From NCBI GenBank assembly GCA_001873285.1, contig MNYV01000074.1, positions 1-19,018 on the forward strand: 19,018 nucleotides of DNA, written 5' to 3'. Both the position numbers and the translations under genes were made by a program. This document shows, one piece after another, positions 9,006 through 18,476 of the stretch. The DNA is from Nitrospirae bacterium CG2_30_53_67. GTDB taxonomy: Bacteria; CG2-30-53-67. The notes under the pieces are model-generated. The model was not told where the DNA came from and ran no database searches. It worked only from the letters and a program-made list of their open reading frames with translations. Position 1 is the stretch's first letter; every line of letters starts with the position of its first letter.

Positions 9006-9329
9006 TTATGCTGCCTTCATCTCGATACCCTTGGTTCTGATTTCATAGATCAAAGGAATCCAAGTGTCATTGTTGTAAGACTCAAGAGAGATGGGTACGG
9101 GCTCAATCCTGGGATCAATTTGGCTGGCAATTTCAAAAAGCTTGGCACTCCCGGCATAGCCTTTCTTCCCGAAATCAGGTGATACGACGGCAACATCAAT
9201 ATCACTGTACTCATGAGCCCGTCCTGAAACCCTCGATCCGTAAATAATCACCTTGGAGACCTTAATCTTGTGTCTCTTCAGTTCCGTGACAAAGGCCTTT
9301 ACTATTCTGACAATTTCTTTTTCAACCAT
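9006..9329 (-). CDS. Minimal nucleotidyltransferase (MNT), MntA-like partner of a HEPN protein
   Basis: 107 residues with the pol-beta-superfamily signature GSRVSGRAHEYSDID: Gly31-Ser32, ten residues, then Asp43-x-Asp45, an exact GSx10DxD metal/nucleotide site. Small nucleotidyltransferases of this kind pair with HEPN proteins. In characterised type VII toxin-antitoxin systems (MntA/HepT) the MNT silences the HEPN ribonuclease by adding AMP. Here the HEPN gene lies immediately upstream and overlaps this one by 28 nt, so translational coupling is likely. The ATG at 9327-9329 is preceded by AGAGAGG at a good distance. The active site looks intact, so the protein is probably catalytically competent. 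An alternative view is that such HEPN/MNT pairs have functions other than toxin-antitoxin; the sequence does not decide. Confidence 0.88.
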   Translation of the reverse strand: MVEKEIVRIVKAFVTELKRHKIKVSKVIIYGSRVSGRAHEYSDIDVAVVSPDFGKKGYAGSAKLFEIASQIDPRIEPVPISLESYNNDTWIPLIYEIRTKGIEMKAA

Positions 9330-9703
9330 TTATAGACCTCTCTGATATCCTGCATTTTTCTGTCGGCAAATTGTTTCGTGCATTTCTCATAAAAGCGCGT
9401 TTGCTGCCTTGGGTATCTTGCTTCGAAATGGAATTCCATGAAGGCCGCGAGTTTTTTCATGATCTTTTGCGGGATCCCGGTATCTATCTGGCCTGCAAGC
9501 AGAGGCAAAGAATGCGTATACGGGGCATGTTTACGTGTGGTTCTGACGACAAGGGCCTTCAGTAATTTTTCAAGTGCCAGATGACCGATAAACAGGGCAT
9601 ATGGATATTTCTTCTTTTCATAGAGCGCCTTTGCCACATCCAGATCATATTCTGCACCTTCCAACCAGTATTGAACAGTCTTTTCGATATCAAATTTCAG
9701 CAA
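9302..9703 (-). CDS. HEPN-domain protein, partner of the nucleotidyltransferase
   Basis: About 133 residues, all-helical HEPN fold typical of the short family: YWLEGAEYDLDVAKALYEKKKYPYALFIGHLALEKLLKALVV, then THSLPLLAG and the late ARYPRQQTRFYEK segment. HEPN proteins paired with MNT enzymes are often ribonuclease toxins with an RX4-6H motif. An RTTRKH string after the LEKLLKALVV helix fits the spacing but not clearly the usual place, so nuclease activity is uncertain. Start choice: GGGAGG at 9715-9710 lies six bases before the TTG at 9703-9701. A GTG at 9721 would add six residues but would put the Shine-Dalgarno inside the gene and has no Shine-Dalgarno of its own. It has its own promoter at 9829-9801 and overlaps the MNT gene downstream. 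A toxin-antitoxin or defence role is inference. Confidence 0.85.
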   Translation of the reverse strand: MLKFDIEKTVQYWLEGAEYDLDVAKALYEKKKYPYALFIGHLALEKLLKALVVRTTRKHAPYTHSLPLLAGQIDTGIPQKIMKKLAAFMEFHFEARYPRQQTRFYEKCTKQFADRKMQDIREVYKWLKKKLSE

Positions 9704-9800
9704 ATCAGACCTCCCATCCACAATTGGGCGTCTCTGGTCATTTCATCCATGCAGCCGTATGGCCGTCTTCTGCTCTTTGGGTGATCTTCCGTCTCCGTTA

Positions 9801-12951: not shown

Positions 12952-13272
12952 ATGACCAAGGCAGACATTGTAGAGGAAGTCTATAGCAGAGTCGGATTTT
13001 CCAAGAAAGAATCTGCGGAAGTTGTTGAAACCGTTATGGAAACGATAAAAAAGACATTAGAAGGCGGCAAAACGGTTAAAATAGCCGGCTTCGGAAACTT
13101 TGTGATCCGCAGCAAGGGATCCAGAAAAGGGCGGAATCCCAAGACCGGCCAGGAAATAGAGATTACACCGCGGCGTGTGGTGACGTTCAAACCCAGCCAA
13201 GTCCTGAAAGAGCATATCTTAAACTATAAACCCTCCGGTGGTGAGTCGGCTGAGGGGGGTGAACCTGCTTAG
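12952..13272 (+). CDS. ihfA: Integration host factor subunit alpha
   Basis: DNA-bending nucleoid protein of the HU/IHF family, acting as a heterodimer with IHF-beta at specific sites in promoters and recombination sites. 106 residues: MTKADIVEEVYSRVGFSKKESAEVVE, GKTVKIAGFGNFVIRSKGSRKGRNPKTGQEIEITPRRVVTFKPSQVLK. The GRNPKTG turn with its intercalating Pro and the RRVVTFKPS end fit the alpha subunit better than HU. The last 16 residues (after LNYKPS) form a Gly/Glu-rich tail. GGGGAGG at 12939-12945 gives the start; an ATG four bases earlier is out of frame. It is followed by a MerR-family gene, an arrangement I recall from many deltaproteobacteria, which supports the ihfA assignment. Confidence 0.92.
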   Translation: MTKADIVEEVYSRVGFSKKESAEVVETVMETIKKTLEGGKTVKIAGFGNFVIRSKGSRKGRNPKTGQEIEITPRRVVTFKPSQVLKEHILNYKPSGGESAEGGEPA

Positions 13273-13285
13273 TGGCCCTATTCGT

Positions 13286-13303
13286 AAATACGGTGACGTA
13301 TTT
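13286..13303 (+). other. RNA hairpin with GTGA tetraloop between ihfA and merR
   Basis: AAATACG (13286-13292), loop GTGA, CGTATTT (13297-13303), then TTCTATT. The stem is a perfect 7 bp and the loop is of GNRA type. The stem is AU-rich and the T-run is interrupted, so it may be a weak terminator or a stability element within the ihfA-merR transcript. Confidence 0.5.
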
Positions 13304-13700: not shown

Positions 13701-14885
13701 TTACGGCAGGTCACCGGTATTCATCTCCGCGCCTGGATCAGGATCTTGATCTTTTCTTAAAAGGATATAGAGCTTCCCTCCGGATTTGAGATGCCCTGCC
13801 GTGGCCGCGGCAGAATCGCCCTCTCCGAGAAAGATGTCAACCCTCTGATGCCCCCGAATGGCTCCACCTGTATCCTGGCTCACGGCAAATCCCCCCCGCT
13901 CTTGCCATCCATTGATTTCTCCTAACTGGTTGAAGAGGGGAAAACGGGCGCTGTAATAACAGAGGCTTCCCGTGGGGATGACGGCCGGGTCCGTGGCCAG
14001 GGAGCGGTAAGGTGTAAGAACCATGTCTCCGGCCCCCTGCGGCCCGGCCTCGGTGGTTTTGAAAAAGATATACCGTTCATTGCGGTTCATGATCTCTTCC
14101 TGCTCTCCGGGGTGCAGGCGAAGATATTTTTTAATCGTCGGGAGAGTGACTTCATGGGTTTCGAGCCTCCCCTGGTTGATGAGGACCTTGCCCAGGGATG
14201 TATAGGACCGCCCGTTGCTTCCGTCGTATCGCACCCGGACCGTGCTTCCGTCAGGAAGGCGGATGATCCCGGACCCTTGAACATGGAGAAAAAAACGCTC
14301 AACCGGATCATCGAGGTAGAGGAGTTCCAGACCTCGGCCGGATAATGTCCCCTGGGTGTCGATCTCCTTCCGGGTAAAATGACCCTGCTTCGCCGAGGAA
14401 AAGGGGATGAACCCAAGGCAGGAAGGACTGTTTTTTGTGATGAGGTCATCGGGCCTGCGGTAGAGAGGGTAGCGAAAGCGTTCAGTCGGTTTCAAGCTTC
14501 CCTGAAGCAGAGGGGAATAATATCCTGTGAATAAGATGGGGCCGGGGACCTCATACAGATCAAATGCCTGTCTAATTCGGCCGTTCAGTTCGGATGCGTC
14601 TTTGGCATCCGAGAGGATTTGGAGAAAAGAGGAGAGGGCCTCTTGGAGGTCCCTTGCGGTGCAGGATCGATTCCCGATCATGACCTGATCTTGAGGTTTT
14701 AGCCGGGACACGGCCTCAAGGGAATTTTGCACGGCGCTTTTTATGGACTCGAGGTGTCCGGTATCTTCCATGAGCGGATAGGCATCCGTTCTTGCGAACG
14801 GGATCCCGGAGGTTTTTGGGGGATGCAGAGGAATGCAGCCCTGGAGAATCATCAGAAAAAGAATAAAAAGGCACCGGCGCTTCAT
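13701..14885 (-). CDS. mltA: Membrane-bound lytic murein transglycosylase A
   Basis: Cleaves the MurNAc-GlcNAc bond of peptidoglycan with 1,6-anhydro ring formation; predicted outer-membrane lipoprotein. 394 residues: signal KRRCLFILFLMILQGC with lipobox Cys17. The MltA barrel follows (about 110-285; FTGYYSPLLQGS, RYPLYRRPDDL, LLYLDDPVERFFLHVQGSG). Last is the 3D domain (about 295-375) with ATDPAVIPTGSLCYY, SQDTGGAIRGHQRVDIFLG (conserved Asp338 and Asp350) and a GDSAAATAGHLKSGGKLYIL end. The catalytic Asp lies in this last domain. The ATG at 14883-14885 is three bases after the nadA stop, with GAGGG directly upstream, so it is the last gene of a unit with nadA. Its muropeptide products would be substrates for sugar recycling, and an AmgK-like kinase gene lies about 3.7 kb away. 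Identification is secure. Confidence 0.96.
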   Translation of the reverse strand: MKRRCLFILFLMILQGCIPLHPPKTSGIPFARTDAYPLMEDTGHLESIKSAVQNSLEAVSRLKPQDQVMIGNRSCTARDLQEALSSFLQILSDAKDASELNGRIRQAFDLYEVPGPILFTGYYSPLLQGSLKPTERFRYPLYRRPDDLITKNSPSCLGFIPFSSAKQGHFTRKEIDTQGTLSGRGLELLYLDDPVERFFLHVQGSGIIRLPDGSTVRVRYDGSNGRSYTSLGKVLINQGRLETHEVTLPTIKKYLRLHPGEQEEIMNRNERYIFFKTTEAGPQGAGDMVLTPYRSLATDPAVIPTGSLCYYSARFPLFNQLGEINGWQERGGFAVSQDTGGAIRGHQRVDIFLGEGDSAAATAGHLKSGGKLYILLRKDQDPDPGAEMNTGDLP

Positions 14886-14888
14886 CCC

Positions 14889-15845
14889 TCATTCCCTGGG
14901 TATGGCGAGCATCCGGTCCAGCGCCGCCTTGGCGCGGACACGAATCTCTTCGGGTACGGTGATGACGGTCTCCATGGTCTCGAGCGACCGGGCCACAAGT
15001 TCGAGGGTCGTTCGCTTCATGTTCTGGCAGGTCAGTATGGGAAGGTCCCAGGGCGCGGGATCGTCGGAGAGGATGTAGAACCTCTTGCCCGGGTTCTGTT
15101 TCCGGAGATTATAGAGAAGCCCCCGTTCGGTTCCGATGATGAACTCCCTGGCCGGAGATTTCCCGGCATAGCGGAGCATGCCGGAGGTGCTGGTCACATG
15201 ATCGGCGAGTTTGAGCACATCCATGGGGCATTCGGGGTGCGCCATGAACAGGGCATCCGGATGCTCGGTGCGGGCCTTCTTCACCATTTCCACGGTGACC
15301 AAATTGTGGACGATGCAAAACCCCTTCCACGCGATGATCTCCTTGCTCGTGAACTGCCGGGCATAGGCGGCCAGGTTCTTGTCCGGGATGCAGATCACCC
15401 GGTCCGAGTCCAGGGAATTGATCACGTTCACCACATTGGCCGAGGTGCAGCAGATGTCGCTTTCGGCCTTGACCGCGGCCGAGGTATTGACATAGGCCGC
15501 CACAGGCACGCCGGGGTGTTGCTCCTTCATCCTGCGCAGTTTCTCAACCGTCACCATATCGGCCATGGGGCATCCGGCGTACCAGGCCGGGAGGAGCACG
15601 GTCTTTCCCGGGTTGAGGATGGCTGCGCTTTCCGCCATGAAGTGGACGCCGCAAAAGACAATGACCTCCGCATCGGCGTCCACGGCCCGTCGGGAGAGTT
15701 CCAGGGAGTCGCCGGTGTAGTCCGCAATCTCCTGCACCTCGTCCACCTGGTAGTTGTGCGCCAGGATCACGGCGTTCCGCTTCTTTTTCAATGCCAGGAC
15801 TTTATGACTGAGTTCTTCAATGACTTGTGCGGACGGTTCGTTCAT
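14889..15845 (-). CDS. nadA: Quinolinate synthase
   Basis: Makes quinolinate from iminoaspartate and dihydroxyacetone phosphate for NAD synthesis; cytoplasmic 4Fe-4S enzyme, sensitive to oxygen. 318 residues in the three-fold NadA architecture. Visible elements are ILAHNYQVDEVQEIADYTGDSLELSR, FCGVHFMAESA, Cys92 in YAGCPMADM, Cys206 in AHPECPMDV and Cys273 in TCQNMKRTTLE (the three cluster ligands), and the substrate-contact segments YVNTSAAVKAESDICCTSANV and STSGMLRYA. The start codon overlaps the stop of the upstream glycosidase gene in an ATGA of four bases, and mltA begins three bases after its own stop. Translation of all three is probably coupled. No nadB or nadC is in the window, and its place between two envelope genes has no obvious metabolic reason. 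Confidence 0.97.
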   Translation of the reverse strand: MNEPSAQVIEELSHKVLALKKKRNAVILAHNYQVDEVQEIADYTGDSLELSRRAVDADAEVIVFCGVHFMAESAAILNPGKTVLLPAWYAGCPMADMVTVEKLRRMKEQHPGVPVAAYVNTSAAVKAESDICCTSANVVNVINSLDSDRVICIPDKNLAAYARQFTSKEIIAWKGFCIVHNLVTVEMVKKARTEHPDALFMAHPECPMDVLKLADHVTSTSGMLRYAGKSPAREFIIGTERGLLYNLRKQNPGKRFYILSDDPAPWDLPILTCQNMKRTTLELVARSLETMETVITVPEEIRVRAKAALDRMLAIPRE

Positions 15846-17353
15846 TTTCCCTCCAGAATCACAGGGCTTTCACTCAATAGAATGTCCGCCGAGCCGCCGG
15901 ATACGGGATAGGTCTTCATGGCGAATGCCTGGTCATCATCGGATAGATTGCGGCCGAATTCGGCGGCAGGAACGATCTCCGTGGCTGTGATGGTTGTACC
16001 CGTGAGACCCGTCAGAGTCAAAGATTTGGTATCGCCTGGAAGATAGCCGGGTTCGTCGAAGTCATCCCACCAGGCGATATAGATGGGCAGGCTGTTTTTC
16101 TCGATACGAAAAACATAAACATGCTCGCTCTCCGTGCCTTCGTGCAGAATCGTAAGGCTGCTCCAGTCCGCATCCCCCAGTTTCTCGGTCATCTTTTGAT
16201 AGGTGTAATAGCCCAGTTTTTTAATACCCAGCCCCAGGTCATTCGAGCCTTCTCCATCGTAGATCAGTCCGGTGTGATCAAAGTAGCTGTCCTGGTTTTT
16301 AAATCCTTCCATCAAACCAAAAGCCGGGAAGACCTTGTCCACGCCTCGGGACAGGGGGTAGATGAATCTCTTGAAATAGTCGCCGGCTTGCTGGGCCTCG
16401 GTCTGCATGGGCTGTTCATCCGTGGGACTGCCGGAGTAGGCCCCCATCTCGGTGATCCAGATCGGTATATCGGATGGAAAGCCGTCGGTCGTGAGTGTGG
16501 ATCGGATATGGTCGAGGACATCTTTGCCGCCGGCCGTCTCCCTCAGGCGGTATTCACCGAGTGCATTGCCATACCAGTGGAAATCAAAAATGTCCACGTA
16601 TTGACCTCCCAATTCAGCGAGAATAGGGGCGTAGAACTGGTCAAATTCCCATATGTAATTGTATGGAAAACCTGTCGCGCCCCCGATCAGGACTTTGCAG
16701 TCAGGGCAGACCTGTTTGACGGCCTGGTAAGTGATCATCTGCAACCCGGCAAAATCCGAGCGGTTATCGTTCGTGGGTTCATTCCCGACCTGCCAGTACT
16801 TGATCGGATTGAGAAGCCCGGGCATGTCTTCTAAGCCGTCGCCATCGTATCGTTCCACGGTTGCCTTTACGAAAGCAGCATATTGAGCCTCATCAATGGG
16901 GAGCCATGAGCCGGGGAGACATCGGCCCTGGTCCATCCGCGCTTGAGGGGAGATATTCGCGATGATGCTGATATCTGTCGGGACCTTTCCATATTCATCA
17001 TCATTCAGAGAAAAGTCAAAGGCGTTCACCGCAAGATCCGGCTGGATCACCGACCATAAGGCATATAATGAAGGCCGGGTGAACCTGACCCCGATATGGA
17101 GGGCATCCGTATAACCATTGTCTTGATACCCTTGCTTGGAAACCTCCGCAGGATGAAAGCCGAAGGGAGATCCTTGTTCTATACCGGAAGACGTCCCCTG
17201 CCGGTTGGTTCCGACATCCACATGGCTGCTCAGGCTGTTATGGTCTCCGTTATCGGCGCCTCCGCCGTCTCTGACTCCGCATCCTGCCATCAACAGCAGG
17301 AGAATCAGGAAGAGGAACCATGAGTGAGTGGGATGTGTCGGAATTTTTTTCAT
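15842..17353 (-). CDS. Clan GH-A-like glycoside hydrolase, lipoprotein
   Basis: 503 residues. Lipoprotein signal: MKK, a hydrophobic WFLFLILLLLMAGC with lipobox Cys25, then a Gly/Asp/Ser-rich linker to about residue 62. The remainder fits a (beta/alpha)8 glycosidase. WQVGNEPT (187-194) has the NEP signature with acid/base Glu192; DFHWYG (257-262) follows; and IPIWITEMGAYSG carries candidate nucleophile Glu302. The spacing of the two glutamates matches retaining clan GH-A enzymes (GH5, GH39 and relatives). Family and substrate cannot be set by eye. The C-terminal part (about 410-500) looks like a beta-sandwich accessory domain. Start: AAAGG lies just before the ATG at 17351-17353. Its stop overlaps the nadA start by four bases. 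Predicted location is the outer membrane or periplasmic face, acting on an extracellular or envelope polysaccharide. Confidence 0.85.
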   Translation of the reverse strand: MKKIPTHPTHSWFLFLILLLLMAGCGVRDGGGADNGDHNSLSSHVDVGTNRQGTSSGIEQGSPFGFHPAEVSKQGYQDNGYTDALHIGVRFTRPSLYALWSVIQPDLAVNAFDFSLNDDEYGKVPTDISIIANISPQARMDQGRCLPGSWLPIDEAQYAAFVKATVERYDGDGLEDMPGLLNPIKYWQVGNEPTNDNRSDFAGLQMITYQAVKQVCPDCKVLIGGATGFPYNYIWEFDQFYAPILAELGGQYVDIFDFHWYGNALGEYRLRETAGGKDVLDHIRSTLTTDGFPSDIPIWITEMGAYSGSPTDEQPMQTEAQQAGDYFKRFIYPLSRGVDKVFPAFGLMEGFKNQDSYFDHTGLIYDGEGSNDLGLGIKKLGYYTYQKMTEKLGDADWSSLTILHEGTESEHVYVFRIEKNSLPIYIAWWDDFDEPGYLPGDTKSLTLTGLTGTTITATEIVPAAEFGRNLSDDDQAFAMKTYPVSGGSADILLSESPVILEGK

Positions 17354-17397
17354 CTTGACCTTTAAAAAACGCGTTCTTTAAAAGGTTTCGGGCTCTC

Positions 17398-17430
17398 CTC
17401 AGGATAACAGCCATTCGGCATTCCGCTGAG
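17398..17430 (-). other. Leader hairpin upstream of the glycosidase gene
   Basis: CTCAG (17398-17402) and CTGAG (17426-17430) can pair, enclosing a small GCC/GGC hairpin (17410-17412 / 17417-17419). It lies between the terminator at 17443 and the glycosidase start codon. The stems are short, so it may have no function; part of this stretch resembles, from memory, dispersed intergenic repeats. Confidence 0.35.
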
Positions 17431-17442
17431 AAGATGCATTTC

Positions 17443-17529
17443 AAAAAAAGCGGCCGGCTCTCAGACATGAGCTGACAACAAGCCCGAAAAGGGGACCGTA
17501 AGGCAGAATTCAGTCCGAACGGCCGCGAT
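17443..17529 (-). ncRNA. Candidate structured small RNA or attenuator leader with intrinsic terminator
   Basis: On the minus strand a promoter (17564-17536) is followed, at the expected start distance, by GCGGCCG (17526-17520). About 63 nt later comes its exact complement CGGCCGC (17456-17450), and then seven T (17449-17443). The closing stem plus U-run is an intrinsic-terminator arrangement. Between the arms three small hairpins can form: GGAC/GTCC, CCC/GGG around CTTTT, and CTCA/TGAG around TGTC. The expected transcript is about 84-87 nt. It could be a free small RNA, or a terminated leader (attenuator or riboswitch-like) for the glycosidase-nadA-mltA unit, whose first codon is 90 nt further on. 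I could not match it to a known riboswitch class by eye. Promoter, stem and T-run agree with each other, but expression is unproven. Confidence 0.55.
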
Positions 17530-17535
17530 GATGGG

Positions 17536-17564
17536 ATTATATGAATAAATGGCGATAGAGGCAA
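17536..17564 (-). promoter_or_regulatory. Near-consensus promoter for the candidate RNA and glycosidase operon
   Basis: Minus strand TTGCCT (17564-17559), 17-nt spacer, TATAAT (17541-17536). The perfect -10 and ideal spacing place the start near A17529 or G17526, at the first base of the long-range stem. Confidence 0.7.
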
Positions 17565-17575
17565 GGGAGAAATGT

Positions 17576-17600
17576 GAGAGCGGCATCTTCACGGCCGCCG
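17576..17600 (-). terminator. Possible weak terminator after the 212-residue gene
   Basis: On the minus strand GCGGC, a 9-nt loop and GCCGC, followed by TCTCACATTT, about 30 nt after the stop codon at 17629. The T-run is poor. It would separate the hypothetical gene from the next promoter at 17564. Confidence 0.3.
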
Positions 17601-17628
17601 GATGACGCGCAGCATTCAATAGGGCCGC

Positions 17629-18267
17629 TTACTGATCGGCGGTTTTTGGAAGGAGTTTGGAGCAGATATCATTGTACAGGGTTTGATGCCCTTCCCGTAC
17701 AAACTGCTCTCTCCCGATCCGGTTCACGACCTGAATGACCTCGTTGGCCACATAGGCCTCGGTCTCGGTAAAGCGGTACTGGCCGGGATTTTCGATCTTC
17801 TGAAATTCATGGTCATAATAGCGCAGGTTCCCCATGCAACGTTTATACATGGCACAAAGAAAAACCGAATGGCTGCGAAGTTTGAAATAATATGTCTTAT
17901 CGGGTTCAATAAAATTGAGGCAGGCCTCCCTGTAGATCTCAAAGAGACCCGATTCGCTGATCCCGTTGGCGCCGCTTTTATCTTCACGGGGCTTACTTTT
18001 CAGCAGGCCGTCACTCCTTCCTGCAACCGCATAAGAGCGTGAACGGTTCATGGAGAGTGAATTGAAAACCGCGACCACCTTGTTCAACGCATTCTGGCGG
18101 GTCAGAAAAGACTGCTGAAGTTTGTGCGTGGCCCGTTTCAAGTCCTCGGCGCTTTTCTTCAATTCCTCGGAAACCTTGAGATAGGGGTTTTGGAAATCGA
18201 GGGCCGGGGTCTTTTCTTTCTCCATCTTGATGATGCCGCTGAATAAGTGGAATCCCTTAAAAAACAT
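17629..18267 (-). CDS. Protein of unknown function, 212 residues
   Basis: I do not recognise a family. There is no signal peptide or membrane span. Residues 26-70 (NPYLKVSEELKKSAEDLKRATHKLQQSFLTRQNALNKVVAVFNSL) look like an amphipathic helix or coiled coil; a polar linker follows (about 75-102); then an aromatic-rich helical part (LFEIYREACLNFIEPDKTYYFKLRSHSVFLCAMYKRCMGNLRYYDHEFQKI) and a tail FTETEAYVANEVIQVVNRIGREQFVREGHQTLYNDICSKLL. The start at 18267 is well supported: AGGAG lies six bases upstream. A second ATG, residue 15 (MEKEKTPALDF), is possible. It is transcribed away from the kinase gene and has its own likely promoter. Protein-like composition and the ribosome site support a real gene; the function is unknown. 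Confidence 0.75.
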   Translation of the reverse strand: MFFKGFHLFSGIIKMEKEKTPALDFQNPYLKVSEELKKSAEDLKRATHKLQQSFLTRQNALNKVVAVFNSLSMNRSRSYAVAGRSDGLLKSKPREDKSGANGISESGLFEIYREACLNFIEPDKTYYFKLRSHSVFLCAMYKRCMGNLRYYDHEFQKIENPGQYRFTETEAYVANEVIQVVNRIGREQFVREGHQTLYNDICSKLLPKTADQ

Positions 18268-18317: not shown

Positions 18318-18414
18318 AAAGTCTATTTTTTCCTGATTTATTTTTTCCTTTTTCCCTGGAATAACTTATGCGCATTTCTGAACATTCTGCAGGTCTCCCG
18401 GCCTCGAGATGTGT

Positions 18415-18476
18415 GAAAAAGTTTACCATTTTTATGAAAACTTTTTCCACTTTTATCCAAACTTTTTCCACTTTTA
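18415..18476. repeat. Array of AAACTTTTTC elements, one inverted and two direct
   Basis: An 18-bp unit AAACTTTTTCCACTTTTA occurs exactly at 18438-18455 and 18459-18476 (21-bp period, about two helical turns). Its core is inverted at 18415-18424 (GAAAAAGTTT). The array ends 16 bases before a near-consensus -35 box, in the gap between divergent genes. The even spacing on one face of the helix suggests a regulator-binding array. Confidence 0.7.

Follow-up and report, generated by a model that had tools for sequence, protein, structure and literature searches.

A dispersed promoter block and a predicted short leader RNA ahead of a glycosidase-nadA-mltA operon in an uncultured Nitrospirae bacterium

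The interval ahead of the glycosidase-nadA-mltA operon of Nitrospirae bacterium CG2_30_53_67 carries one copy of a genus-specific promoter block, TTGCCT-17-TATAAT, that is dispersed before unrelated genes, and the leader that follows it probably yields a short RNA mostly ending before this glycosidase/NAD-synthesis cluster. The element is real, beyond chance and fairly ordinary as regulatory elements go; it is not a recognised riboswitch. All features of note are read on the minus strand of the window, i.e., the whole stretch of 19,018 nt of contig MNYV01000074.1 that we analysed. The account that we favour, at slightly better than an even chance, is that of a reused promoter-leader module with one copy in the window: RNA synthesis would begin near 17529 and end for the most part at the T-run, and read-through would feed the operon.

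The operon is compact. Its first gene (15842-17353) encodes a glycosidase-like lipoprotein of 503 aa that has no Pfam match and whose putative activity and name come from the sequence-only reading that preceded this work. It overlaps by 4 nt with nadA (quinolinate synthase; 14889-15845; NadA E 3e-120), and mltA, with MltA plus 3D domains (13701-14885), comes 3 nt after nadA. Since the three genes are so tightly packed, the interval 17354-17628 is the natural site of a shared leader. Upstream of the leader, on the same strand, lies a family-conserved gene of 212 aa (17629-18267). Of the eight genomes that made up our comparison set for the phylum, two of them from the genus (the window genome, G000, and a congener, G001), six carry it. 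An amidase gene follows the orthologue of the 212-aa gene in G001, and the window interval 3' of this gene is thus a synteny break. A clear hairpin comes soon after the stop codon of the orthologue in G002, G003 and G004; the window is without a hairpin at that place. A short tandem repeat (18414-18476; about three copies of the 21-bp unit TGAAAAAGTTTACCACTTTTA) lies upstream of the 212-aa gene.

The letters of the promoter (17536-17564) are as the sequence-only reading gave them: the -35 box TTGCCT occupies 17564-17559 and the -10 box TATAAT 17541-17536, with a spacer of 17 nt between them. They match the sigma-70 hexamers at 10 of 12 positions with 17-nt spacing, and a consensus scan between the 212-aa gene and the operon gave no other promoter. 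The block recurs at other loci far beyond chance, with homology extending over about 17528-17567. A 201-bp query compared by blast with the congener gave a 41-bp match (88%, E 8e-8) that covers the promoter and not the RNA. Pattern and profile searches then placed a block of 29-40 bp, spacer included, near-identical at seven places: three in the window genome (C60, C74, which is the window, and C123) and four in the congener (C18, two at C50, and C69). These strong copies score E 1e-17 to 1e-20 per genome in the profile search, values that are flattering because the profile was built from these same seven copies; the blast match is independent of that profile. Diverged copies were found at C123:13874 and, more weakly, at C123:16028, G001:C95 and G001:C150; G002 gave a single weak match. 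By pattern, the six genomes of the phylum outside the genus have no copy. A wider scan of about 378 further genomes (386 in all) returned one match with two mismatches, and the reversed control likewise gave one, which is the chance level.

Across copies, the spacer shows the same strong conservation as the hexamers. Within the block from -35 to -10, none of the seven copies has diverged as far as that in the window; the hexamers and spacing of the window copy are intact despite the other substitutions. The pattern TTCnTATAATCCC is rare (three matches in each genome), and the reading of the block as nothing more than a standard promoter used across the genus was therefore rejected. A viral origin was also rejected: matches in viral contigs share the searched pattern alone, and there is no phage or plasmid match. 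The block has an antisense frame (LYEEMGMEAR..) that is open for 25-72 codons depending on the copy, with no Pfam or plasmid match. This frame is broken in the window and is not conserved as protein, so the block does not owe its conservation to coding. The 72 open codons belong to the copy at G000:C60 (L005:152-330, the DUF433 promoter), where the frame reads ..LYEEMGMEARKIKEAWQFVRS..EIKKTLSGK, also with no Pfam or plasmid match; its counterpart in G001 (L002) resembles this frame shortened by an internal deletion.

Every copy with a known downstream gene faces that gene. DUF433 stands behind the copies at G001:C18 and G000:C60, ORF6N behind one copy at G001:C50 and also behind a diverged copy at C123, a small Cys-rich ORF behind the copy at G000:C123, a PLD-SNF2 helicase, itself followed by a type IIG restriction gene, behind the second copy at G001:C50, and the glycosidase in the window. 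The two species have almost the same sequence for DUF433 and its promoter, a pair that shared descent with the gene can explain. The same promoter thus stands at several places per genome and the genes downstream of its copies are non-homologous, the two sequence-based criteria of a known kind of dispersal, that of mobile promoters or promoter propagation (Matus-Garcia, Nijveen and van Passel 2012, doi 10.1093/nar/gks787; van Passel et al. 2014, doi 10.1534/genetics.114.162883), here taken as presented in papers citing that work (PMC5906472, PMC9208149, PMC8049555). As in those accounts, we find short near-identical promoters, confined to one lineage, before non-homologous genes, and see no transposase of their own. 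The block differs from mobile promoters, as those papers describe them, in that the copied stretch at times takes in part of the leader RNA and that one gene (DUF433) travels with its promoter; promoter activity and active mobility are putative here. The best reading is that the block would be a dispersed element of the mobile-promoter type serving accessory and defence genes. That promoter and leader are common to different genes suggests movement independent of the gene.

The predicted RNA or leader of about 85 nt (17443-17530) is supported by its fold and by a homologous sequence at G001:C69. From the -10 box we infer a start at 17528-17530, and we place the end at the T-run. The closing stem is made of a 5' arm GCGGCCG (17520-17526) and a 3' arm CGGCCGC (17450-17456), both found by direct reading and in the fold. 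The stem had been thought to begin at the first transcribed base; the arms exist, and the stem begins 2-4 nt after the likely start. The claim that seven T follow the closing arm directly holds (17449-17443), and together with the rod this run forms an intrinsic-terminator-like end. The 87-nt RNA 17529-17443 has a minimum free energy of -33.5 kcal/mol and forms one long irregular rod, whose GC arms extend into UUCGGAC/GUCUGAG and smaller helices, instead of the three separate small hairpins proposed earlier inside the closing stem. None of 200 dinucleotide shuffles was as stable (z -3.36). The arms and T-run, taken alone, are a modest signal, because 23 of 200 shuffled windows (~11%) contain a perfect GC-rich 7-bp arm whose partner lies no more than 100 nt away and is followed by at least six T.

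A compact short-loop hairpin is typical of intrinsic terminators and not strictly required. The window resembles an intrinsic (Rho-independent) terminator or attenuator leader in its GC-rich paired region with seven T directly after it, ahead of an operon, and it has the stable GC-rich stem and U-run of such terminators (-33.5 kcal/mol, T7). Unlike them, its stem is very long and irregular in place of a compact short-loop hairpin: the closing arms are 63 nt apart, the rod is longer than typical terminators, and a scan for short-loop terminators did not report it. It further differs from attenuator leaders in that no antiterminator, leader peptide or ligand site was identified in it, and from both in that its structure is not conserved in the one homologue. 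The 5' region in full is predicted to fold as the rod followed by two hairpins. One of these (17392-17437; z -1.8) lies between the T-run and the start of the glycosidase gene; the other, ACCTTTTAAA-gaacgcg-TTTTTTAAAGGT (17358-17386), holds the probable Shine-Dalgarno sequence AAAGG (17363-17359) in its 3' arm, in a stretch that scores only z -1.8. The frame 17250-17564, which overlaps the RNA and whose translation the sequence-only reading had named as a refutation, shows no sign of being translated: it runs into a stop in the G001:C69 copy and Pfam gave no match, and we rejected it as a protein.

The length of leader held in common varies between copies. The copies before ORF6N (G001:C50) and the Cys-rich ORF (G000:C123) have about 30 nt of leader in common, the helicase leader at G001:C50 has its first ~25 nt in common with the window RNA, and the window and G001:C69 have the RNA region in common (~80 nt), with 55 of 87 aligned positions identical (about 63%). 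The local score of this last pair is 21, against a maximum of 15 in 5,000 shuffles. The conserved blocks are GAATTCTGC (17503-17511), whose GAATTC is also in the helicase leader, and TGTCAGnTCAT..CTGAGA, with TTGTTGTCAGCTCATGTCTGAGA at 17459-17481 in the window. The C69 site follows an efflux operon; beyond it come a high-copy repeat and then the end of the contig, which leaves this copy with no assignable gene. Searches of the six remaining genomes of the phylum gave no homologue of the RNA region.

The structure of the window RNA is not kept in this homologue. In the alignment, C69 preserves 16 of the 28 window pairs as standard pairs, whereas a register shifted by one position preserves 15, and one pair is changed on both sides, figures that come from two sequences only. 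The consensus fold of the two reaches only -7.1 kcal/mol, the C69 RNA by itself is no more stable than its shuffles (z -0.3), and it lacks the T-run; C69 can form a closing stem GGCAGA/UCUGCC in another register, 2.3 kcal/mol above the optimum. The idea of a structured short RNA with a terminator is thus borne out by the stable fold and terminator-like end of the window and not by G001:C69. The check for conservation and covariation that had been proposed gave homology of sequence, with pairing that hardly exceeds that of the shifted register. Absence of covariation and of a conserved stem in related genomes had been given as a refutation, and it has come about in part, because the C69 copy drops the window's stem, terminator and pairing.

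In the module that we favour, a near-identical -35/spacer/-10 block stands before unrelated accessory genes with a shared leader of varying length. Sigma-70 RNA polymerase would start at about 17529, and the RNA would fold as a GC-closed rod followed by U7 and mostly terminate near 17443, releasing a short RNA. Read-through would supply the compact glycosidase-nadA-mltA operon, in which the predicted AU-rich hairpin may also mask the first ribosome-binding site. The output of the promoter would be held down by an ordinary terminator in the leader, which would also stop read-through from the upstream 212-aa gene; such a mechanism implies no ligand and no sensor.

The sequence-only reading had offered a leader that responds to some signal, and a riboswitch or protein-dependent attenuator acting on the operon, e.g., through NAD status, would fit a terminator-like structure placed between a promoter and tightly packed genes that include nadA, with a further predicted hairpin over the Shine-Dalgarno sequence. 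NAD-related riboswitches stand ahead of nadA or transport genes, and the window leader, too, precedes an operon containing nadA. Unlike them, it has no covariance-model match: Rfam gave none at the gathering score, in line with the earlier failure to recognise a known riboswitch family by eye, and a search of 17300-17640 at E up to 5 returned only eukaryotic and viral families at chance level and no NAD-related family. Neither membership of a known family nor a covarying conserved structure before related genes was found for the window leader (two sequences). The only homologous RNA, that of the congener, lacks the T-run and, as far as its contig shows, does not lie beside a glycosidase operon, and no alternative antiterminator pairing came to light in the window leader. 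Blast of the leader against fetched glycosidase loci from other phyla found nothing, and none of those homologues adjoins nadA. A leader conserved with the glycosidase is thus rejected, and since these glycosidase homologues from other phyla are without it, a sensing role is argued against; we consider such a role very unlikely.

If the locus encodes a small RNA of ~85 nt that acts in trans, is confined to the genus, has a promoter and terminator of its own and lies at differing places in the two congeners, this would account for the window-C69 homology above all 5,000 shuffles, with its conserved blocks, and for the autonomous promoter and the stable fold and T-run of the window. It would sit poorly with the loss of fold and terminator in the C69 copy, with there being only two copies, both in one genus, and with the first ~25 nt doubling as the 5' leader of a protein gene at G001:C50, and we regard it as unlikely. 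A bolder form, in which such a regulatory small RNA spreads with a defence/toxin-antitoxin promoter, forms a shared accessory-gene regulon and has been co-opted here to control nadA, seems highly improbable to us. The window could also hold a remnant: at a rearrangement breakpoint, an accessory gene (defence or toxin-antitoxin) would have been lost and its promoter and leader left behind, and the rod and T-run would be decaying or due to chance. In favour of this, the interval is at a synteny break, the genes behind other copies are of defence type, the copy here has diverged furthest among the seven in its -35 to -10 block and the arm-plus-T feature arises in 11% of shuffled windows. The intact hexamers and spacing, the fold at z -3.36 and the lack of any other promoter in the consensus scan between the 212-aa gene and the operon make a remnant quite unlikely in our estimate.

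The favoured module would mean that, in an uncultured lineage, a whole promoter, hexamers and spacer together, can be put to use again before defence-type genes that are unrelated to one another and, in this case, before a metabolic operon. Were the copies a real regulon, the conserved 17-nt spacer would offer a handle on the joint switching of such genes.

Other features came to light in the window and its relatives. An MNT-type nucleotidyltransferase gene (PADLOC PDC-S09 match) adjoins a partner that is HEPN-like by eye, at 9006-9721 on the minus strand, and the two are likely a toxin-antitoxin pair. A tandem repeat with a 19-bp unit, CCCGATGTCATCCCCCGAT, lies between the first gene and pyrG (673-728) and resembles common intergenic repeats. 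The locus at G001:C69 holds an interspersed repeat of ~150 bp (L006:68-218) with a long inverted repeat and a predicted fold of -68 kcal/mol; this locus has no Rfam match. The repeat is found at many other loci (e.g., L054-L058, L061-L066, L068-L072) and in all six genomes of the family, with 78 matches to the query in G000, 57 in G001 and 65 in G002; the two other genomes of the class have no full copies. A 33-bp fragment of it, 85% identical, lies in the window at 13268-13300, at the end of an HU/IHF-like gene (12952-13272).
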